A stretch of 49,275 bases of DNA from Actinokineospora spheciospongiae (lineage in GTDB: Bacteria > Actinomycetota > Actinomycetes > Mycobacteriales > Pseudonocardiaceae): contig NZ_AYXG01000185.1 in the NCBI RefSeq assembly GCF_000564855.1, forward strand, positions 1 to 49,275. The letters are read 5' to 3'. The translations under genes and the position numbers were made by a program. The notes beneath the pieces are model-generated. The model ran no database searches, was not told the origin of the DNA, and saw nothing but the letters and a program-made list of their open reading frames with translations. The stretch's first letter is position 1. Each line of letters begins with the position of its first letter. Positions 5,655 to 35,166 of this stretch are shown one piece after another.

Positions 5655-5724
5655 CTCGTGGTGCTCCTTGGCATCGGGGTGGAGGGGACGGGTCGGCCGA
5701 CGTCGGGAAGTGTGCCACAAACTT

Positions 5725-5739
5725 GTTAGGACTCCTACC
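5725..5739. promoter_or_regulatory. Palindromic operator candidate upstream of the AhpD-like gene
   Basis: GTTAGGA-C-TCCTACC is a near-perfect palindrome (TAGGA/TCCTA arms exact) about 70 bases upstream of the minus-strand start, in a locally AT-richer patch. It is a plausible binding site for the neighbouring MarR protein. Confidence 0.45.
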
Positions 5740-5842
5740 TACACTGTGACGCAGCACTCACCACGGCACTCCACGGCGCGGGCTCGTGGAGTGGCCACCA
5801 ACCGGCTCGGCGATTGGCGGACCGCGACCCCGGAATGCGGCA

Positions 5843-5863
5843 GTTAACGGTTAACGGGCGCGC
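5843..5863 (+). promoter_or_regulatory. GTTAACGGTTAAC box, copy 1
   Basis: A tandem GTTAAC-G-GTTAAC followed by GGGCGCGC, lying 76 bases before a start codon with a strong AAGGAGG. Copy 2 lies at the same distance (75 bases) before the intact S1E protease. A further isolated GTTAAC is at 5880-5885. Confidence 0.55.
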
Positions 5864-5918
5864 TCGGGGCAGAAGTCGCGTTAACGTCAGGTTCCCTGCG
5901 GATGCGAAGGAGGACTCG

Positions 5919-6089
5919 GTGCGCGCCGCCCCGCCCGCGTCGGTCGCCCCGGGAGGCACGTGGTTCGACGCGGTGACCGAGCCGGGTCGGATGCCCCACG
6001 TTCCCGGCGCGGTCACGCACCCGTCCGCTGCCCACCCCACCGTGGGAACGTGGACGTCGCAGGCCGGCACCGGTGTCCTGGACCCCTGA
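5919..6089 (+). pseudogene. Collapsed remnant of an S1E protease with P domain
   Basis: A 56-codon open frame with GTG start and a strong AAGGAGGACT ribosome site, nearly identical in its 5' region to the intact protease at 8402. After only nine residues it shows APGGTWFDA, matching PAGTWFDE in the intact propeptide. It then jumps to a P-domain tail: VPGAVTHPS, GTWT and TGVLD correspond to FPGTATHS, GTWT and TGVLD at the intact C-terminus. The intact protein continues TGVLDSWSITV; here the Trp codon TGG is TGA, and the bases beyond it still match (CGATC..GGTC). The catalytic domain, signal peptide and FnIII domain have been removed, apparently by in-frame internal deletions. It may still be transcribed, but protease function is excluded. 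Confidence 0.7.
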
Positions 6090-6215
6090 CCGATCGTGGT
6101 CCGGCGGGCCGGGACAGGTGCCCGGCTTCCCGCGCGGGGTCGCGCACACCACCATTGCGCCCGTGATCATCGATGAGCCCGCCGACCCGGCGCGGATGGC
6201 ACCCGGGAGCCCGTT

Positions 6216-7145
6216 GTGACAGCCGAGGCGGACCTGCGCACCCTGCTCGACAGCGGCCCGTTCCCCGTCGCCCTGCGCGCGGCCATCACCACCCGCGGCC
6301 TGGGGCTGGGGCGGTTGCAGGAACGACTGCGGCTGCGGGGGGTGCGGATCAGCCGCGCCACCCTGAGCTACTGGCAGTCGGGCCGCAGTCGCCCGGAGCG
6401 GCGGGATTCGCTCATCGCGTTGCGGCACCTGGAGGCTGTGCTGGAGGTCCCCGACGGTTCGCTCACGGCGTTGCTCGGCCCACCCCGGCCGCGCGGGCGC
6501 TGGGGGTACAGCGCGAGCGGGCTGCCCGCGATCGGCGCCTTCTGGCCGGAACCGACGGCGGTGGCCCACGCCCTCGGCCGGGTCGACACCACCTGGGACG
6601 AGCGGCTCACCCGCCTCAGCCAGCACGACCGCGTGCACATAGGACCGGAGGGGGGTGAGTTGTCCACCGTGTCGCGGCAGGTGCTGCGCGCGGAGGCGGA
6701 CGGGCCGGACCGCTGGGTGGTGATCGTGCACATCGACCAGCCCGGCCACCCGGTGCCCCGGGTCCGGCCACTGCGCAACTGCACGCTCGGCGAGGTGGCC
6801 GAGGACCCCGACGGCGGCCTGGTGGTGGCCGAGCTGCTGTTCAACCGGAGGCTGACCCGCGACGACACCGTGATCATCGAGCACGAGGTGGCGCACGTTC
6901 CGCCGGGCCCGGTGGACGGCAACTACGAGCGCAAGTTCCGCCTCCCGGTGCGCGAGTACGTGCTGGAGGTGTGCTTCGACCCCGGCCGCCTGCCCGCCCG
7001 CTGCGAGCAGTACACCCGCGGTGATGACGACGTCGAGGAGAGCAGGCCGGTCGCACCGGAACCGGGCGGGTCCGTGCACGGGGTGGCGTTGAACTTCGGA
7101 CCGGGCTGCTACGGCTTCCGGTGGTCCCCGCCGGTCGACAGGTGA
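6216..7145 (+). CDS. XRE-like HTH regulator, duplicated copy 1
   Basis: A 309-aa cytoplasmic protein. Residues about 10-80 form a helix-turn-helix region with the motif RATLSYWQSGRSRPERRDSL, characteristic of Cro/CI-type recognition in actinomycete regulators. A proline/glycine linker, GPPRPRGR, joins it to a ~200-residue domain of unknown type ending in KFRLPVREYVLEVCFDP and GCYGFRW. Every one of these landmarks recurs in the protein at 10374. GTG 6216 is the only reasonable start, and no clear ribosome site precedes it. It stands directly downstream of the collapsed protease remnant, just as its paralogue follows the intact protease. Target and ligand are unknown; control of the adjacent exoprotease is the simplest inference. 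Confidence 0.75.
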   Translation: MTAEADLRTLLDSGPFPVALRAAITTRGLGLGRLQERLRLRGVRISRATLSYWQSGRSRPERRDSLIALRHLEAVLEVPDGSLTALLGPPRPRGRWGYSASGLPAIGAFWPEPTAVAHALGRVDTTWDERLTRLSQHDRVHIGPEGGELSTVSRQVLRAEADGPDRWVVIVHIDQPGHPVPRVRPLRNCTLGEVAEDPDGGLVVAELLFNRRLTRDDTVIIEHEVAHVPPGPVDGNYERKFRLPVREYVLEVCFDPGRLPARCEQYTRGDDDVEESRPVAPEPGGSVHGVALNFGPGCYGFRWSPPVDR

Positions 7146-7172
7146 CGCCATCGCGCGCAACGGCCCCCGGAG

Positions 7173-7227
7173 ACCCGCCGCCCGGTGGGTGACGGCCCGA
7201 GGTTCCGCCCACCACCGGGTTGCGGGT
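7173..7227. terminator. Imperfect hairpin between convergent genes
   Basis: ACCCGCC..CCGGTGGG pairs with CCCACCACCGGG..GCGGGT across a ~20-nt loop, with small bulges. It lies between the stop codons of two converging genes and could serve both. Confidence 0.45.
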
Positions 7228-7234
7228 CGTGACC

Positions 7235-8071
7235 TCAGCCCGGCATCGCCGCACCGCGGTAGACGCGGTCGAGCAGGGCGTGCAGCCCGGTGTCGTAGCG
7301 GGCCAGTTCGGCCCGGGTGTCGACGTCGTTGTGCACCCCGTCGCCGCCCCTCGGGCCTTCCCGGTTGAGGTCGAAGTAGCTCTGGACGCCCTCGGCCCAG
7401 TACTCGGAGCTGTTGCTGCCCGCGTAGGTGTTGTTCCACAGCCCCGCCGACCGCGCCCGGTCGTAGGCCGCCCGGAGGTCGCGGGTGAAGGCGGGGTCGA
7501 TGTGCCGCAGTGCCATGTCGGCGACGGTGTGGCCGAACTCGTGGACGTAGCAGTTCTCCGCGCCCTGGTCGTCCACCAGGTTGGCCTCGGTGCCCACGGA
7601 GATCGGCAGCGAGTCCGTCGCCCCCATCCCCGCCCAGTAGCGGGCGTCCAGCGAGGTCCCGTACGCCGCGCGGACCTCGGGGATGGAACTCATCTTCTCG
7701 CCGCGGGCGGTGAGCACGACCCGGACGTCGCGCCGGTCGAGTTCGTTGACCGGGTGGTAGGGGAAGGTCCGCACCAGGGCCGTCAACTGGCGTGCCGCTT
7801 TCAGCAGGGTGGAGTCGGCGATCGCCGCCGAGCCCAGCACGGCGATGGACCGGCCGGTGGTGGCGTCCACGGGACCCCGCACGTACTTCGCGTACCACCG
7901 GGTGTCCAAGTGGTACCGGTCGACAACGTCCCGGGGGACGGGCTGCTGGACCGCGGCCCGCGTCGTGCCCCCGGGCACGTCCTGGGAAGCGAAGACCTCC
8001 TGCGGGGCCGCCGACACGGCGGCGGTGACTGTTGCGAGTACCAGCAGAGCCGCTGTCGCGCTCATCCTCAT
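7235..8071 (-). CDS. Secreted zinc metalloprotease (HEFGH zincin)
   Basis: A 278-aa exported protein. A Sec signal peptide (RMSATAALLVLATVTAAVSA) is followed by a single catalytic domain. The zinc motif HEFGH places His177, Glu178 and His181 in the active site. About 45 residues later, SSEYWAEGVQSYF supplies a Glu-rich helix that may hold the third ligand, as in gluzincin-like families. Two cysteines are not obvious, so the fold is probably not disulfide-stabilised. ATG 8071 has AAGGAG at correct spacing; an in-frame ATG two codons later is less well placed. It is divergent from the S1E protease across a 330-base regulatory gap, within a run of extracellular hydrolases. The substrate is unknown; protein scavenging or processing of the neighbouring protease are both possible. 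Confidence 0.8.
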   Translation of the reverse strand: MRMSATAALLVLATVTAAVSAAPQEVFASQDVPGGTTRAAVQQPVPRDVVDRYHLDTRWYAKYVRGPVDATTGRSIAVLGSAAIADSTLLKAARQLTALVRTFPYHPVNELDRRDVRVVLTARGEKMSSIPEVRAAYGTSLDARYWAGMGATDSLPISVGTEANLVDDQGAENCYVHEFGHTVADMALRHIDPAFTRDLRAAYDRARSAGLWNNTYAGSNSSEYWAEGVQSYFDLNREGPRGGDGVHNDVDTRAELARYDTGLHALLDRVYRGAAMPG

Positions 8072-8401
8072 CTGCGCTCTCCTTCGTCCGGTCTGGGATT
8101 GTCGGCTCGGCAGCCGCTCGTGCGCAATGGGCGGGCAATTCTTTCGGCCGATCGGTGGTTGATAGGCCGGGCCCGCGCCCGGTTCGTCTTGTGGAATGAG
8201 CGGAACCGGGTATTGGGAAATGGTGCTTTTGTTACATTCCAACAGGTTGTCGGACAAGCCTTTCGGTGACGGCGAGGTGCCTGGTGCGCCCGGTCGAACA
8301 ATTTGACGGCATGGATGCCCTTTCGAGTTAACGGTTAAACGGCGCGCATTCTCGTGGTGGCGGCTTATCGTCGGCTGCCCCGCAATCACGGAGGAGGACT
8401 G
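8072..8401. promoter_or_regulatory. Divergent promoter region with GTTAACGGTTAAAC box, copy 2
   Basis: A 330-base gap between two divergent exoprotease genes, with AT-rich patches unusual for this DNA (around 8210-8245 and 8295-8340). At 8327-8347 it carries GTTAACGGTTAAACGGCGCGC, the counterpart of the copy at 5843. Homology with the left copy continues to the ribosome site (GAGGAGGACT). The box lies 75 bases before ATG 8402, so it probably controls the protease. Confidence 0.6.
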
Positions 8402-10204
8402 ATGCGCAGCATCGCAGTTGCCGCACTGGTGGCGCTGGTGACCGTCAGTGTCCATAGTGGAGTCGCATCGGCGGCGCCCGAGGCGGCCGACCCGGCGGCG
8501 TCCGCCCTGGCCGAAGGGCTCGGGATCAGCCAGGACGCCGCCAGGGAACGCCTCCGGCAGCAGGACCGGGCGCACGAGGTGCTGGCCGCGCTGCCCCCGG
8601 TGGTCGACCCGGCGGGCACCTGGTTCGACGAGGGGAGCGGGTCGCTCACCGTGGCGGTGACCGACCAGACCGCCGCCGCGGCGGCCCGGGCGCACGGTGC
8701 CAGAGCGGTTCTTGTGCCCCGCAGCGCAGGCGCGTTGGCGGAACTGCGCAACCGGGTCCGCGCCCTGGCCACCCCGGACGTCGCGTTCAACACGATCGGG
8801 ATCGACCAGCGGGCCAACGAGGTGCTGGTCACCGTGAACCGCACGCGGATGACCGCGGCCACCCGGCAGTTCGTCGCCGCCGTGTCCTCGATCTCCGGTG
8901 TGCGGGTGGAGCAGTCCGACACCGGACCGCGGCAGCAGGCGGGGGAGGTGCGGCCGGGCGATCCGTGGTGGCCGCAGGGCGAGGGCGCCTGCTCGGTCGG
9001 GTTCGCCGCCACCGACGCGAATGGGGGCAAGCACTTCCTGACCGCCGGGCACTGCACGAACAACGCGAACCAACCCGCGTACGGCCAGAGCGGCAACCAG
9101 AACCGCGTCGGCACCTCGAACGTCGGCGGGTCGCGCAGCGTCAACGGGCGCGAGGGCGACATGGGCGTCGTCGCGGTGACCGAGCCCGGGTGGACCCTGT
9201 CGGCCTCGGTCAACACCTGGGGTTCCGCGGCGGTGACTGTGACCGGCGCGGCGGAGACGATCGTCGGCGACAGCGTCTGCCACTCCGGCAACGGCTCGAA
9301 GTGGCGGTGCGGGACGGTCACCTACGTCAACGAAACGGTCGACTACGGCGGCGGCACCGTCGTCGACGGCCTGACCTTCACCACCGCGTGCTCGCTGGGC
9401 GGGGATTCCGGGGGCGCCTGGCTGCGCGGGGACAAGGCCGTCGGACTGCACTCGGGCGGGCCCGCCCAGTGCGTGCCGAACCCCGCCAAGGACGAGCAGT
9501 CGGTCTTCCAGCCGGTGAGCGAAGCCCTGCGCAAGTGGAACCTGACCCTGTTCACCGGTGGCGGTGGCGGCGGTGACACCCAGCCCCCGTCCACCCCGGC
9601 CGGCCTGCGCTCCACCGCCCAGACCGCCACCTCGCTGTCGCTGGCCTGGAACGCCGCCACCGACAACGTCGGCGTCACCGGCTACGACGTCTACCTCGGC
9701 GCGACCCTGGCCGCCTCCACCGCCACCACCTCCGCCACCGTCTCCGGTCTGACACCCGACACCGCCTACTCGGTGACGGTCCGGGCCAGGGACGCCGCGG
9801 GCAACGCCTCCCCGCCCGGTGCCGCCCTGGCCGTCCGCACCAAGCCCGGCAGCGGCGGCGGGCGCGCGTTCGGCAACGACACCGACCAGCCCATCGCCGA
9901 CCAGCGCACCGCCGCCAGCCGGATCTCCTCCACGGCGACCGGCGCGGCGGCCAACCCGGTCCGGGTGTCCGTCACCGCCCGCCACACCTGCCAGGAGGAC
10001 CTGCGACTGCGGGTCGTCAGCCCGGCGGGCTGGTGGTACCAGCTCAAGAATTCCGGTGGCTCCGCCTGCACCCCGTTCCCGGGCACCGCCACCCACTCGT
10101 TCAGCCCGTTCGCCGAGCAGGCCTCGGGCACGTGGACCCTGGAGGTCACCGACACCCGCACCGGCAACACCGGTGTCCTCGACTCCTGGTCGATCACGGT
10201 CTGA
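8402..10204 (+). CDS. Secreted S1E serine protease with FnIII and P domains
   Basis: A 600-aa extracellular protease of the alpha-lytic/streptogrisin type. In order: a Sec signal peptide (about 1-25, ending ASA), an inhibitory propeptide (about 30-185, with PAGTWFDE and paired ALP/DVAFN landmarks), and the chymotrypsin-fold domain. The triad is His217 in LTAGHC, Asp253 in EGDMGVV and Ser336 in GGDSGGAW. A glycine-rich linker then leads to a fibronectin type III domain (about 398-480) and a proprotein-convertase P domain (about 500-600, ending NTGVLDSWSITV). Cysteine pairs around the His and Ser suggest disulfides. ATG 8402 follows GGAGGAGG. The architecture suggests activity on insoluble or surface-bound protein. 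Its own collapsed duplicate lies 2.4 kb to the left. Confidence 0.93.
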   Translation: MRSIAVAALVALVTVSVHSGVASAAPEAADPAASALAEGLGISQDAARERLRQQDRAHEVLAALPPVVDPAGTWFDEGSGSLTVAVTDQTAAAAARAHGARAVLVPRSAGALAELRNRVRALATPDVAFNTIGIDQRANEVLVTVNRTRMTAATRQFVAAVSSISGVRVEQSDTGPRQQAGEVRPGDPWWPQGEGACSVGFAATDANGGKHFLTAGHCTNNANQPAYGQSGNQNRVGTSNVGGSRSVNGREGDMGVVAVTEPGWTLSASVNTWGSAAVTVTGAAETIVGDSVCHSGNGSKWRCGTVTYVNETVDYGGGTVVDGLTFTTACSLGGDSGGAWLRGDKAVGLHSGGPAQCVPNPAKDEQSVFQPVSEALRKWNLTLFTGGGGGGDTQPPSTPAGLRSTAQTATSLSLAWNAATDNVGVTGYDVYLGATLAASTATTSATVSGLTPDTAYSVTVRARDAAGNASPPGAALAVRTKPGSGGGRAFGNDTDQPIADQRTAASRISSTATGAAANPVRVSVTARHTCQEDLRLRVVSPAGWWYQLKNSGGSACTPFPGTATHSFSPFAEQASGTWTLEVTDTRTGNTGVLDSWSITV

Positions 10205-10237
10205 TCGACCAGGTGTGCCGGGAGCCCGACCCGGCAC

Positions 10238-10286
10238 GCGGCCCCTCCCCACCTCACCCCTCTCCACCTCGGTGGGGAGGGGCCGC
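10238..10286 (+). terminator. Strong hairpin after the S1E protease
   Basis: A perfect 16-bp stem (GCGGCCCCTCCCCACC with its complement) and a 17-nt loop, 34 bases after the stop codon. It separates the protease transcript from the regulator that follows. Confidence 0.75.
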
Positions 10287-10373
10287 ACGACACCGCACAA
10301 CTCCACCCGGCGAAGTCCCGCTGGAACGCGGGAGGGGATTGTCGCGGGTGGAGTGCGGTGGCACTGTGGGCCG

Positions 10374-11246
10374 GTGGAGACGGATTCGTTCGACCGGGTG
10401 TTGCGGGCGGCGATCGCGCGCAGCGGGTTGGGCCTCGAACGGATCAGGTGCCACCTCGCCCGACGCGGGTGCCGGGTCAGCATCGCCACGCTGAGCCAGT
10501 GGCAGTCCGGCAAGCGGCGACCGGAGCGCCAGGAGTCGTTGCGGGCGCTGGTCGTCCTGGAGGACGTCCTGTCGATCCCGGCGGGCACGCTGACCGGGGT
10601 CGTGGGACCGCCGAGGCCGCGCGGGCCGCAACGGCAGCGGCGGGTGTCGCCGGAGGCGGTGTGGCCGGGGGAGCCCCAGGTGCCGCCGCTGCTGGGGGAG
10701 GTCGACGACGAGGACGAGTTCCTGATGCGGCTGAGCCACCACGACGTCCTGCGGTTGGGTGCGGACGGGGCTGAGGTGTCCCTGGCCGTGCGCCTGGTGC
10801 TGCGGGCCGCGCGGTCCGGGGTGTCGCGGTTGCCGGTCGTGTCCGTGCTCGACGAGCCGCACCCGACGGGGCAGTGGGTGCGGCCGGTGCGGCACTGCTC
10901 GGTCGGGGAGGTGGCGTACCTGCCGGAGTTCGGGTCCATGGTGGCCTCGCTGAGGCTGGACCGGGAGCTGGCGCGGGGCGACGTGGTCATGGTCGAGTAC
11001 GAGATCGTCTACCCGCCGGGCGCGCCCAGGAGCGTTCGCACGGAACGCAAGCTGCGGTTCCCGGTCCGCGAGTACTTCGTCGAGGTCGAGTTCCACCCGC
11101 GTGCCGTGCCCGAACGCTGTCGCTGGCTGGTGGCGGACGGGGGGAGGGCGGCCCGGGGCGGTGGGTTGCGCCTGGACGGGACCACCGCCCAGTTCGCGGT
11201 GTCCGGTGCCGACCCCGGCATCTACGCGGTGCGCTGGGACTGGTGA
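10374..11246 (+). CDS. XRE-like HTH regulator, duplicated copy 2
   Basis: A 290-aa paralogue of the protein at 6216. The HTH part reads ATLSQWQSGKRRPERQESL against ATLSYWQSGRSRPERRDSL in the other copy. The linker GPPRPRG, the HCSVGEVA strand (NCTLGEVA there), RKLRFPVREYFVEV and the C-terminal GIYAVRWDW are all conserved. GTG 10374 is chosen because it leaves a short N-terminus comparable to the paralogue; GTG 10353 in frame is an alternative. No good ribosome site is visible, so a leaderless or weakly translated message is possible. It stands alone behind the protease terminator and converges on a trypsin-like protease gene. Unlike the neighbouring protease pair, both regulator copies are intact, so retention seems selected. 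Confidence 0.75.
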   Translation: METDSFDRVLRAAIARSGLGLERIRCHLARRGCRVSIATLSQWQSGKRRPERQESLRALVVLEDVLSIPAGTLTGVVGPPRPRGPQRQRRVSPEAVWPGEPQVPPLLGEVDDEDEFLMRLSHHDVLRLGADGAEVSLAVRLVLRAARSGVSRLPVVSVLDEPHPTGQWVRPVRHCSVGEVAYLPEFGSMVASLRLDRELARGDVVMVEYEIVYPPGAPRSVRTERKLRFPVREYFVEVEFHPRAVPERCRWLVADGGRAARGGGLRLDGTTAQFAVSGADPGIYAVRWDW

Positions 11247-11271
11247 GGGCACCCGTGCGCCACGGGTGCCC
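11247..11271. terminator. Bidirectional hairpin
   Basis: GGGCACCCGTG-CGC-CACGGGTGCCC, a perfect 11-bp stem with a 3-nt loop, between the converging regulator and trypsin-like protease genes. Confidence 0.75.
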
Positions 11272-11280
11272 CCACGCCGG

Positions 11281-11940
11281 TCAGCCCTGGATGGTGGTCT
11301 GAATCCACTGCCGGTAGGTGTACACGTTCACGTGCCCGGAGGTCCCGGCGGAGGTGTTGCCGTAGGAGTGCACGCCGATCAGGCGGCCGTTCTGGAACAC
11401 CGGGCCCCCGGAGTCGCCGGGGCCGGTGTAGCCGTTGCTCTGGGTGGCGTCGATGAAACTGCTGCTCCTGCCGGTGATGCGCATGGTGGCGACCTTGAGG
11501 TAGCGGGAGTCGCGGGCGGACTCGGTGCGCCCGAACCCGTACACCTGCTCGCTGCTGCCGACCGCGGGCGCGGTGGTGGTCAGGGCCGCGTAGGTCGTGC
11601 TCACCGGGCTGTTGATCTGGTACAGGATGAGGTCGGCCGACGGGTGCGACACCGAGCGCACGGCGGTGCGGGACTGACCGGCGTTGCGGTCGGTGCTGCC
11701 GATGAGGAACCGGTTGGCGCTGTTGGCGCAGTGCTTGGCGGTGATCACCCAGCGGGCGGCGACGATCGAGCCGGAGCAGTTCTGCGCCCCGTTGACCATG
11801 ATCGCGACGGCCCACGGGCCGGTCTGGGCGTAGCCGCCGCCGATGATCGCGGGTTGGGCCGGAGCCGCGGCCGCGGGAACCGCGGCTCCGGTCAACGCGG
11901 CCAGGCCGAGCAGGGCCACGGCGATTTTCTTGACGAGCAC
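11281..11940 (-). CDS. Secreted trypsin-like serine protease (S1A)
   Basis: A 219-aa exported protease. A Sec signal (VKKIAVALLGLAALTGAAVP, cleavage near AAAA) is followed by a very short pro-segment and IIGGGYA, the trypsin-type N-terminus of the mature enzyme. The triad is His70 in TAKHC, Asp103 in SADLILYQI and Ser177 in GPGDSGGP. Residues before the catalytic Ser contain no Asp at the usual S1-pocket position (TGPGDSGG), so classic Arg/Lys specificity is uncertain. GTG 11940 is preceded by AGGAG. Length is typical of short streptomycete trypsins. It converges on the HTH regulator and is divergent from a metalloprotease-lectin gene, inside the exoenzyme island. Confidence 0.9.
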   Translation of the reverse strand: MLVKKIAVALLGLAALTGAAVPAAAAPAQPAIIGGGYAQTGPWAVAIMVNGAQNCSGSIVAARWVITAKHCANSANRFLIGSTDRNAGQSRTAVRSVSHPSADLILYQINSPVSTTYAALTTTAPAVGSSEQVYGFGRTESARDSRYLKVATMRITGRSSSFIDATQSNGYTGPGDSGGPVFQNGRLIGVHSYGNTSAGTSGHVNVYTYRQWIQTTIQG

Positions 11941-12293
11941 GGATTCTCCTGGGAGTCAGGGGGAAAACGCAGGATGTGACTCGGGAAATCGACGCCCGGG
12001 ACGGGCGTGCCGCCGACTGTAGGCACGTGTTGATGAATCACTCAAGAGTGTGAATCGGCAGTGCGTCACCCGCTGTGGCGCTGACCAGCGCACACCGTGG
12101 TGAAACCGTGAAAAGTAAAAGGATCGCGCCACTGCCGGGCACACCGTTCTGCGCCGTGGGATCGACGATCGGTCGCCCTGTGCTGTTGGTGATGAAATGC
12201 CGGTCCACTTGGTCGTCCGGATGTGCGATGTTTGCCCGCGGGGTCGGTGGTCATATATGAATGACGCCCCTGCCAGCGGAAAGTGAGTCCTCC
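11941..12293. promoter_or_regulatory. Divergent promoter region between two exoproteases
   Basis: A 353-base gap between a trypsin-like protease and a metalloprotease. AT-richer stretches lie near 12020-12060 and 12230-12262 (TCATATATGAATGA). No GTTAAC box of the kind found before the S1E protease is present, so control is probably different. Confidence 0.4.
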
Positions 12294-13757
12294 ATGGACA
12301 AGCAGCGTTTTCGGCGTCGCGCGGTGCTCGCGCTGGGTGCGGCCCTGGTGCTGAGCGGCGCGGTGGTGGTGTCCACCGGGTCGGTGTCGGCGACCGAGTC
12401 GGCCCAGGCGCCCGCGGCGCCCGCGCCCGTGGCGGTGACCAAGCGGATCGCGGTGGTGCTGGTCGACTTCACCGACGACCGGATCGACTCCTCTGCCGCG
12501 TTCCGCGCGAAGGTGCGCGACATGTACTTCGGCGCGGACACGTCGCTGGCGCGCTACTACCGCGAGGCGAGCAACGGCGCCCTGGACTTCGCGCCGCTCG
12601 CCGGGCAACCGGAGGTGATCGGTCCGCTGGCCATCGGCGTGGCCGCGGGCTGCGACTCCGGTGCGATGAACAGCAAGACCAGGCAGGCCCTGTCCGCCAA
12701 GGGGATCAGCGGCTTCGACTCGCTGGCCATCTGGTTCCCCAACCGGCTCGCCAAGTGCGGCTGGGGCGGGCTCGGGCAGCAGCCGGGCCCCACCACCTGG
12801 ATGCCCGACAACGCGACCGGCACGCCGCCCAGCGGGGTGGTCCACGAACTCGGCCACAACCTCGGCTTCCGCCACCTGAGCGCCAAGACCTGCACCGCGG
12901 GCACGCTGTCGGACTGCGTCGACGCGGACTACCGCGGTTCCTCGCCGATGGGCGGCGGTGGGTACCGGAGCGGCCTGTCCGCGCCCGAGTTGCTCCACAT
13001 GGGCTGGTTGCCCGCGGCGCAGCTCATCACCGCGCCCGCCTCCGGCACCTACACCCTCGTGCCCCTGCACGCCCCCGACTCCACCCCCGGGACCCGCGTC
13101 CTGGAGATCCCGCGTTCCGGCACCGAGCGGATCACCGTGGCCTACCGCCGCAACGGCAACACCCTCGACACCGGTGTCGGCGAGGGCGTGCAACTGCACC
13201 TGACCACCCAGGGCGCCTACCACACCTCCACCCTCGTCGACCCGTCCGCGGCCACGACCGGCAAGGACGACACCGACCTCGACGTCGGCGCCCGCGTCAC
13301 CGACGCCGCCAACGGCATCACCGTCGAGACCGTCTCGGCGGGCGCCACCAGCGCCACCGTCCGGATCACCACCAAGGGCGCCCCGCCCGCCGGGCGCACC
13401 CTCCTCGGCGCGGGCGGGCGCTGCCTCGACGTCAAGGACCAGGCCACCACCAACGGCACCCGGGCCATCCTGTGGGACTGCCACGGTGGAGCCAACCAGC
13501 GGTGGACCACCGGCACCGACGGCACCCTGCGCTCGCTGGGCAAGTGCCTCGACGTCGAAGCCGGTGGCACCGCGGACGGCACCCGCGTCATCCTCTGGGA
13601 CTGCCACGGTCGCGCGAACCAGCGGTGGACCGCCGACGCCGACGGCACCCTGCGTTCGCTGGGCAAGTGCCTCGACGCCAGGACCGCCGCGAACGGCGCG
13701 CTCCTGGTCGTCACGACCTGCGCGGGCAGTGCCACCCAGAAGTGGACCACCCGCTGA
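12294..13757 (+). CDS. Secreted metzincin-like metalloprotease with ricin-type lectin domain
   Basis: A 487-aa extracellular enzyme. The signal peptide begins QRFRRRAVLALGAAL, an arginine-rich n-region that could use Tat but reads equally as Sec, and ends near VSA. The catalytic domain carries HELGHNLGFRH: His184, Glu185, His188 and His194, the full metzincin zinc motif. A candidate Met-turn, SSPMGGGG, lies about 30 residues later; this resembles gametolysin (M11/M6-type) peptidases. Several cysteines surround the site. From about residue 360, three beta-trefoil units follow, each with a CLDV/CLDA and an NQRW or TQKW (QxW) motif, that is a ricin-B/CBM13 lectin for carbohydrate binding. This pairing suggests proteolysis of glycoproteins or attachment to cell walls. 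ATG 12294 has only a weak ribosome site (GGAAAGTGAG). Confidence 0.88.
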   Translation: MDKQRFRRRAVLALGAALVLSGAVVVSTGSVSATESAQAPAAPAPVAVTKRIAVVLVDFTDDRIDSSAAFRAKVRDMYFGADTSLARYYREASNGALDFAPLAGQPEVIGPLAIGVAAGCDSGAMNSKTRQALSAKGISGFDSLAIWFPNRLAKCGWGGLGQQPGPTTWMPDNATGTPPSGVVHELGHNLGFRHLSAKTCTAGTLSDCVDADYRGSSPMGGGGYRSGLSAPELLHMGWLPAAQLITAPASGTYTLVPLHAPDSTPGTRVLEIPRSGTERITVAYRRNGNTLDTGVGEGVQLHLTTQGAYHTSTLVDPSAATTGKDDTDLDVGARVTDAANGITVETVSAGATSATVRITTKGAPPAGRTLLGAGGRCLDVKDQATTNGTRAILWDCHGGANQRWTTGTDGTLRSLGKCLDVEAGGTADGTRVILWDCHGRANQRWTADADGTLRSLGKCLDARTAANGALLVVTTCAGSATQKWTTR

Positions 13758-33304: not shown

Positions 33305-34186
33305 ATGCAACGACGCATCTTCGCCAAGGCGGGCATCGCCGCCGCCGCGGTCGCGGTCGCGACCGCGGCCCTGGCAGGCCCCCAGGCCTTCGCGGGCGAG
33401 GGCCCCGGCGCCGCCGTGGTCGCCTTCGCCGGGCACGCCAAGGGGCCCGCTCCCACCGAGCAGTCCGTGGGCGCGCAGCGGGGTCCGTTCGCGACGGACA
33501 AACTGGTCGTCCCGGCCCAGGCGGGCCGCGGGTTCAACAAGGGCACGATCTACTACCCGGACGACACCTCGCAGGGCACCTTCGGCGCGGTCGCGGTCAT
33601 CCCCGGCTTCCTCGAGGGCGAGTCGGCCATCTCCTGGCTCGGCCCGACGCTGGCCTCGCACGGGTTCGTCGTGCTGACCCTCGCGCCCAACGCCACCACC
33701 GACTACCCCGAGCCGCGCAGCGACCAGTTGCTCGCCGCCGTGGACTGGCTCGCCAACCAGTCCCCGGTCAAGGACCGCGTCGACCCCGCCCGCCTCGCCG
33801 TCGCGGGCCACTCGATGGGTGGCGGCGGAACCCTCATCGCCGCCTCCAAGAACCCGGCCCTGAAAGCGGCCGTGCCGCTGGCGCCCTGGAACCTGTACTC
33901 GGACTTTTCCGACGTCACCGTGCCCACGCTGATCGTCGGTGCGGGCCGGGACTTCATCGCCCCCGCCGTCATGCACGCCACCCCCATGTACAACTCGCTC
34001 AAGGCCAAGCAGGACCAGGGCTACCTCAAGCTCAAGAACGCCGACCACTTCACCACCAACCGCTACGACGCCACCGTCACCGCGTACACCGTCTCCTGGC
34101 TCAAGCGCTACGTCGACGAGGACACCCGCTACTCGCAGTTCCTCTGCCCCGTCAAGTCCGGTTTCCAACTGACCTGCCCCGTCTGA
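33305..34186 (+). CDS. Secreted polyester hydrolase (cutinase/PETase family), copy 1
   Basis: A 293-aa exported alpha/beta hydrolase of the actinomycete cutinase type, the family that includes Thermobifida cutinases and Ideonella PETase. Signal peptide to about residue 30 (RRIFAKAG then a hydrophobic core, cleavage near AFA). Seen: KGTIYYPDD, the oxyanion segment VIPGFLEGESAISWLG (Phe where Thermobifida has Tyr), SHGFVVLTL, nucleophile Ser170 in AGHSMGGGGT, APWNL with the substrate-clamp Trp, Asp216 in GAGRDFIAP, and His248 in NADHF. Cys281 and Cys291 would form the C-terminal disulfide. ATG 33305 follows GAGGAG. Expected substrates are cutin, aliphatic polyesters or triglycerides; activity on PET is only possible, not shown. 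Confidence 0.88.
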   Translation: MQRRIFAKAGIAAAAVAVATAALAGPQAFAGEGPGAAVVAFAGHAKGPAPTEQSVGAQRGPFATDKLVVPAQAGRGFNKGTIYYPDDTSQGTFGAVAVIPGFLEGESAISWLGPTLASHGFVVLTLAPNATTDYPEPRSDQLLAAVDWLANQSPVKDRVDPARLAVAGHSMGGGGTLIAASKNPALKAAVPLAPWNLYSDFSDVTVPTLIVGAGRDFIAPAVMHATPMYNSLKAKQDQGYLKLKNADHFTTNRYDATVTAYTVSWLKRYVDEDTRYSQFLCPVKSGFQLTCPV

Positions 34187-34266: not shown

Positions 34267-35166
34267 TCAGCCGAAGGGGCAGTTGCTGCGGTACTGGGTC
34301 ACCTTGTCGCCCTTGGGGCCGGGGCAGAGGAAGCGGGTGTAGCGGGTGTCGCCGTCGACGAACCTCTTCATCCAGGACACGGCCAGGGTGCTGACGAGGG
34401 GCGTCGACCTGGTGAAGGTGAGGTGGTCGGCCTCGGTGAGTTCGGCGAAGGCCTTGCGGGTCGAATCCGGCAGGCCCTCGTACATGGGGATGGAGAAGTT
34501 GTCGACGGGGGCGGTCTTGTCCTTGCCGCCGCCCACGAGCGCGGTCGGGACCCCGACGCCGGACCAGTTGCTCACCACCGACCAGGGGGCCATGGCGAAC
34601 GCCGCCTTGAGCGAGGGGTTGGAGCGGGCGGCGAAGAGCGCGCCACCACCGCCGAGCGAGTGACCCGCCACGGCGAGCCGGTTGGTGTCGATGCGGCGCC
34701 GGACCTCGGCGGGTGCCTGGCGGGTGAGGTGGTCCAGCGCGGCTTGGAGTTGCCTGCCCCGTTCCGGGGCGTTGTCGTCGTTGGCGATGTTGGACATGGC
34801 GATGGTCACGAACCCGTGCGTGGCCAGACCCCTTGCGAGCCACCCGATCGACGCCTGGACCGAGCCGCCGCCGGGGCTGACCGCCACGACGCCGAACGTG
34901 CCCTGGCTGGTGTCCCTGGGGTAGAAGATCCGCCCGCCACCGAATCCCGGGCCGTCCTCGGCGGAGACATCGCTGTAGGAGACCGAGAACGGCCCGTTTC
35001 CGCCCACGCTGTCCGCGGTGGGCGCCGGTCCCCGCTCGTACGGGTTCGCCGCCGCTGCCGTCGTCGGAAGCCCCTCGGTCGCGGAAGCGGTCGAGACGAC
35101 GCCCGCCACCGAGGTGACGGACAAGATCGCGGCGATCAGGAGAATGCGGATTCTGCTCGTGGTCAT
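34267..35166 (-). CDS. Secreted polyester hydrolase (cutinase/PETase family), copy 2
   Basis: A 299-aa exported paralogue of the hydrolase it converges on. After a signal peptide (about 1-31, ending near ASA), the mature part opens ANPYERGPAPT, the characteristic start of Thermobifida-type cutinases. Catalytic residues fall on the same numbers as in copy 1: Ser170 in AGHSLGGGG, Asp216 in GGKDKTAP and His248 in EADHLTF. The oxyanion loop reads SPGGGSVQASIGW, with Gly where the aromatic clamp residue (Tyr/Phe) normally sits, which should widen or weaken the binding groove. DTRYTRFLCPGP and a final NCPF supply the C-terminal disulfide. ATG 35166 follows GGAGG. The two copies have diverged considerably in the binding loops, suggesting different polymers. 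Confidence 0.88.
   Translation of the reverse strand: MTTSRIRILLIAAILSVTSVAGVVSTASATEGLPTTAAAANPYERGPAPTADSVGGNGPFSVSYSDVSAEDGPGFGGGRIFYPRDTSQGTFGVVAVSPGGGSVQASIGWLARGLATHGFVTIAMSNIANDDNAPERGRQLQAALDHLTRQAPAEVRRRIDTNRLAVAGHSLGGGGALFAARSNPSLKAAFAMAPWSVVSNWSGVGVPTALVGGGKDKTAPVDNFSIPMYEGLPDSTRKAFAELTEADHLTFTRSTPLVSTLAVSWMKRFVDGDTRYTRFLCPGPKGDKVTQYRSNCPFG

Follow-up and report, generated by a model that had tools for sequence, protein, structure and literature searches.

A putative regulator-box-protease module in Actinokineospora spheciospongiae and related Pseudonocardiaceae

Actinomycetes secrete many proteases, and to our knowledge it is mostly an open question how single protease genes are switched. 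Among described enzymes, the streptogrisin / alpha-lytic protease group, which we take to be MEROPS S1E, comes closest to the protease considered here: the likeness covers the catalytic domain, the preceding propeptide and the conserved His-Asp-Ser. Unlike this group, the protease adds an FnIII and a C-terminal P-domain, and it is tied to a regulator and a box. PMC2605481 names a P-domain behind a subtilisin domain. Literature listings and the beginnings of abstracts contained nothing on the box or on the regulator family; within the reach of this literature search, the module of regulator, box and protease is undescribed.

The window, that is, the whole stretch of 49,275 nucleotides that was analysed, is one entire contig (G000:C184) of the 7.5-Mb genome of A. 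spheciospongiae. It probably contains a protease-control module of the Pseudonocardiaceae. Box and protease are present twice, the protease copy on the side of the left regulator (regL) being a probable pseudogene; regL would control the right protease in trans, while the right regulator (regR) would belong with a trypsin gene. The features concerned are:

5843..5855, no strand assigned: left box GTTAACGGTTAAC, a perfect palindrome and, from co-occurrence, the presumed regL operator
5919..6089, + strand: 56-codon mini-gene, a putative S1E/P-domain protease remnant with a propeptide piece, a possible catalytic-domain piece and the P-domain end, a Trp codon having become a stop
6216..7145, + strand: regL, the left regulator (309 aa), with an XRE-type helix-turn-helix and a beta domain, of the box-linked clade
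8327..8339, no strand assigned: right box GTTAACGGTTAAA, differing from GTTAACNGTTAAC in one of its 12 fixed letters
8402..10204, + strand: intact secreted protease with propeptide, chymotrypsin-fold domain with GDSGG, FnIII and P-domain (from Pfam and PDB relatives)
10334..10368, + strand: stretch preceding regR, with a counterpart before the regR genes of G003, G005 and G008 but none evident in G007 or G012
10374..11246, + strand: right regulator regR, 290 aa, of another clade, in which four of five close relatives adjoin a trypsin gene
11281..11940, - strand: secreted trypsin-type protease (Pfam), by synteny the usual convergent neighbour of regR
12099..12119, - strand: element conserved before the trypsin gene in all 5 aligned sequences, less strongly in G007, and unlike the GTTAAC box

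Boxes and protease copies in the window

The box consensus is a GTTAAC-N-GTTAAC palindrome, from which the right copy departs by one letter. The preliminary description had seen box, protease form and regulator twice, and all of them are found where it placed them, including the distance from box to current start codon, which is 75-76 nt in both copies. The box is rare. In the genome of 7,526,218 bp, its exact 12-mer occurs twice, both times in the window, and the reversed control does not occur; shuffles of the window lead one to expect 0.13 boxes at up to 2 mismatches, the observed ones being those at 5843 and 8327. As for wider regL targets in this genome, the signal is not clear, with 20 places at up to 2 mismatches versus 15 for the reversed control, nor is any link evident for the two places with 1 mismatch that lie elsewhere in the genome. 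A sigma-70 promoter scan of 5700-11300, which is uninformative for A. spheciospongiae, gave no match.

The right protease has the chymotrypsin fold of the streptogrisin/alpha-lytic group. Its catalytic domain matches PDB entry 2pfe, an alkaline serine protease (8.6e-26), and also streptogrisin B and alpha-lytic protease, and Pfam recognizes both FnIII and P-domain. Residues H217, D253 and S336, which from known motifs we take to be the catalytic triad, are invariant in all five aligned sequences. The gene product is thus assigned to the S1E streptogrisin type, with putative proteolytic activity.

The mini-gene had been described as a left protease collapsed to 56 codons, and a remnant with propeptide and P-domain matches is indeed what the DNA alignments point to. 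Positions 5909-5984 match the propeptide DNA of the right protease in 56 of 76 nucleotides (score 32.0; 77% over 62 nt by blastn). Positions 6068-6101 match the P-domain end in 28 of 34 (score 20.8), in a block that extends past the Trp-to-stop change, in agreement with the earlier observation of matching DNA beyond the new stop. Compared with 60 unrelated segments of the window, for which the best scores reach 20.0, only the propeptide block is clearly beyond the control on its own score and the P-domain block barely so. The leader (5842-5916, 49 of 75, score 17.8) and the catalytic-domain piece (5951-5991, 31 of 41, score 19.0, overlapping the propeptide block) are within the control range, and their weight comes from order and position. 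The matching blocks run in order, from leader and propeptide to the P-domain end and the DNA after the stop; the alignment of the encoded protein to the P-domain is equalled by 1 of 1000 shuffles, and the leader aligns with that of Actinokineospora fastidiosa as well. One correction concerns the start: as we read the alignments, the best counterpart of the mini-gene GTG is a Val codon inside the propeptide, and the start codon of the protease has no equivalent in the mini-gene, so that the signal peptide would have been deleted. Signal peptide and catalytic triad are both absent from the mini-gene and, judging by the alignments, were lost by deletion.

Most plausibly, the mini-gene is a pseudogene of the protease, left by deletions in the course of ordinary decay. 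This is the simple reading because an open frame of this length is at chance level, 62% of random 56-codon stretches of the window being open, and because the equivalent place in A. fastidiosa holds a box, a near full-length protease (with a frame break in its P-domain) and a regL ortholog. In a search of 265 loci, the best match outside the window's own DNA lay in the A. fastidiosa protease, in its propeptide (E 0.007), and no further mini copy was found, although with so short a query sensitivity is low and diverged copies would escape. It had also been proposed that the mini-gene acquired a new role as a peptide. A ribosome-binding site next to the GTG, a single open frame and GC contents by codon position that are still coding-like (0.75/0.70/0.89) would suit a working short peptide built from protease pieces. 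However, a frame that is expected by chance, the missing signal peptide and catalytic residues, the near full-length A. fastidiosa protease and the lack of a second mini copy in that low-sensitivity search lend this proposal no support, and we regard it as highly improbable.

Several other genes of the window may be mentioned. Between the two units, 7235-8071 (-) encodes a secreted putative peptidase with a weak Pfam match to ATLF (19 bits, cut-off 27.4) and none in NCBIfam. An M11-like peptidase with a ricin-type lectin domain is encoded at 12324-13757 (+); a relative with 68% identity is found near the protease-regL locus of A. fastidiosa. Two convergent genes, 33305-34186 (+) and 34267-35166 (-), encode hydrolases of the PETase family (PF12740, E 4.9e-97 and 3.9e-85), whose nearest NCBIfam model is bis(hydroxyethyl) terephthalate hydrolase, under its cut-off.

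Two regulators of different clades

Both regulator genes are open (309 and 290 codons), in keeping with the earlier statement that they are intact, and their products share 43% identity. In a tree of 72 regulators, regL is part of a clade of 26 entries (support 100/98) and regR of one of 7 (100/100). The whole-unit segmental duplication put forward in the preliminary description is rejected, since the regulators are not each other's closest relatives and fall in separate, well-supported clades. regL and regR are old paralogs instead of sister copies. The shared part of the two units consists of box and protease only, because the likeness of the right protease to that of A. fastidiosa (81% DNA identity) spans from the box through the stop codon. 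A protease copy would have come to lie before regR, and the copy beside regL would have decayed; the order of these events is a matter of inference as well.

The closest named relatives of regL are in Actinokineospora sp. NBRC 105648 and A. fastidiosa JCM 3276. The A. fastidiosa ortholog (genome G007) has 72-73% identity, with dN 0.17 and dS 0.50, values which include the time before the protease was lost. The surroundings of regR are of another kind. Its close relatives in five other genomes (59-77% identity) have no S1E protease within the 11-12 kb read, and in four of them, G003, G005, G007 and G008, a trypsin gene is convergent with the regulator; the portion of G012 that was read lacks this neighbour. 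Since the stretch at 10334..10368 is shared, regR likely has its own promoter region. The element at 12099..12119 is a candidate regR site; upstream of regR itself, no such element was seen.

Association of box, regulator and protease across genomes

The box tracks the regL clade. In 16 genomes of the genus, the 11-base core TTAACNGTTAA is found at 10 places, and is present in all 6 genomes that have the clade and in none of the 10 that do not (Fisher 1.2e-4); among 200 Pseudonocardiaceae genomes it is present in 16 of 17 with the clade versus 18 of 183 without (2e-13, a p value not to be taken literally, since the genomes are related). The reversed control occurs at 5 places in the genus, all in genomes without the clade. 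Membership in the family sample was defined as at least 59% identity and 353 bits, with at most 11 candidates per genome scored in the first look, so that weaker members fall outside the count; if G022, G122 and G191 (56-58% identity) are added, the figures become 16 of 20 versus 18 of 180. A regL-clade gene lies within 2 kb of 21 of the 47 box places, which together touch 15 of 18 such genes. The remaining 26 places roughly match the background, the reversed control being counted at about 36 places in these 200 genomes. On the basis of this co-occurrence, GTTAACNGTTAAC is presumed to be the regL operator.

An S1E-type protease is located within 2 kb in 17 of the 26 entries of the clade, which are related, were fetched by regulator or by box, and include the window with its right protease. 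The suggestion that this protease is accompanied by a regulator family of its own is supported for the regL clade, with the box as third partner, and fails for the regR clade (none of five). Synteny also reveals regulators without such a protease, the finding that the preliminary description had named as a refutation, in 9 of the 26 entries and in the regR clade. In the stretches read, 11 of the 26 have no box at up to 1 mismatch, and two of these 11, L199 and L200, have the 11-base core. The clade members of G201, G122 and G191 have neither box nor protease locally. Conversely, the proteases of G003, G005, G008 and G014 (58-61% identity), genomes without the regL clade, have no upstream box, the best places having 4-6 mismatches. 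Same-type proteases without a box also occur in genomes that do have the clade (L130, L131, L133 and L059, with 6, 6, 4 and 3 mismatches).

Gene orders differ among the loci: box-protease-regulator, box-regulator-box-protease, divergent and convergent. Two named Amycolatopsis have a box, regL, a second box with 2 mismatches, and the protease. At locus L211 (6633-7240), which has the gene order of these Amycolatopsis loci, the box is exact, regL has an internal deletion and a stop, and the protease is gone, so that the module seems to have decayed here independently. In G012, a box stands before the protease on a 10-kb contig without the regulator; the assembly is a draft and does not give the true distance, and the arrangement is a possible precedent for control in trans. 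In L203-L206, the convergent proteases are preceded by two boxes at a distance of 21 bp, of which one has a mismatch; this spacing, about two helical turns, suggests paired binding.

Boxes are also present before glutaminase genes (named by similarity and Pfam counts). In G001 and G015, these adjoin a LysR gene, without regL as a neighbour, and in G013 boxes flank the regulator between LysR and glutaminase. The same genome has a 3.2-kb stretch without called genes from LysR to regL (L055, 7906-11147). LysR as the binder of the box is rejected: there is no match in A. spheciospongiae at E 1e-70, and 8 of 10 box-less genomes of the genus have matches.

A probable module for protease control and its regulator family

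In the proposed module, a regulator of the regL clade would act through the palindromic operator GTTAACNGTTAAC on a streptogrisin-type protease that is secreted and carries FnIII and P-domain. Deletions would have shrunk the protease copy beside regL to its remnant, and the intact copy would now sit before the unrelated regR. The regL gene is intact, and in all likelihood its product still recognizes the box close to the right protease promoter and governs this protease in trans, while regR would pair with the trypsin gene. It is possible to speculate that the beta domain of the regulator senses a product of proteolysis. From sequence similarity, box rarity, co-occurrence and neighbourhoods we infer binding, trans control and the order of events.

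Two other readings can be imagined. Each regulator could control its neighbour only, with regR driving the right protease and regL and the remnant forming a dying locus. regR shares the strand of the protease and follows it at a distance of 169 nt, in accordance with this reading, and L211, with its broken regL, lost protease and intact box, would be a parallel decayed locus. Nevertheless, such a division of labour is unlikely in view of the close regR relatives, which lack a nearby S1E protease in five of five cases, have a trypsin gene nearby in four and keep the upstream stretch in three, and in view of the regL-clade box retained by the right protease and the intact state of regL. The box could also serve a different factor, such as a sigma factor or a global nitrogen regulator, the link with regL being due to shared ancestry. 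In favour of this, the box-carrying genomes are related, and the glutaminase boxes beside LysR in G001 and G015 occur without regL as a neighbour. We consider this improbable too, because the box accompanies the regL clade in other genera as well and in loci of differing gene order, because G201, G122 and G191 miss box and protease together, and because the LysR gene does not track the box. Control of the right protease by regL in trans is therefore the reading that we retain as probable.

The module thus outlined yields a regulator family outside Pfam and NCBIfam, together with a candidate operator that is rare enough for whole-genome scans and a short list of candidate targets: protease, glutaminase and the regulator itself. 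It also offers a natural experiment, in which regL would have lost its neighbouring target and kept a second one under a nearly identical box.

The regulator family is represented by 1 to 15 matches per genome in the 16 genomes of the genus. In the immediate neighbourhood of 42 regulators chosen for diversity (82 genes), P-domain genes are counted 12 times versus 2 among 105 farther genes (p 0.001), a count that takes in the regL-clade proteases; trypsin (8, p 0.02) and subtilase genes (5, p 0.13) each face at most 2, since only 25 families are listed for the farther genes. This enrichment of protease types is only suggestive. In other clades of the regulator (L074, L076 and L138), variant sites such as GTCAACNGTGAAA, with 3 mismatches to the box, occur 191-240 nt upstream, and L074 has a P-domain gene opposite. 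A more general idea, which we put forward as tentative and rather doubtful, is that of an undescribed family in which an XRE helix-turn-helix is combined with a domain resembling the M1 N-domain and whose members would sense peptides set free by secreted proteases. Each clade would then have its own operator and its own set of secreted hydrolases; in the regL clade, GTTAACNGTTAAC would be the operator for streptogrisin-type protease and glutaminase.

How does such a regulator compare with known ones? At E 0.01, none of the 42 members has a Pfam or NCBIfam match, including to any Pfam helix-turn-helix or to the M1 N-domain, and the three PDB matches of the regulator profile are at chance level (best E 0.47). 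Profile comparison of the regulator's beta domain with 33 M1 N-domains by hhalign gives a probability of 0.4%, so that no sequence relation is found; a control protease alignment likewise yields none. Likeness is instead seen in the predicted structures. The N-terminal domain, modelled at pLDDT 93.4, resembles helix-turn-helix domains, the best Foldseek match having E 0.07 at a probability of 1.00, and has, by fold only, the five helices of a lambda-repressor-like DNA-binding domain. Residues 98-306 of the model superpose on residues 1-209 of LTA4H, with a saddle-type beta fold across the whole domain, in Foldseek alignments that are loose (TM about 0.3).

With the one-component XRE regulators DdrO, SinR and ClgR, the family therefore shares the fold of the N-terminal domain; unlike these, it is without Pfam or NCBIfam match and has a long all-beta C-terminal domain. 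In its modelled shape, this beta domain is reminiscent of the N-terminal saddle domain of M1 aminopeptidases, such as LTA4H and ERAP1, and of Ost1/ribophorin I. Unlike in the M1 aminopeptidases, it is fused to a DNA-binding domain and has no catalytic part.
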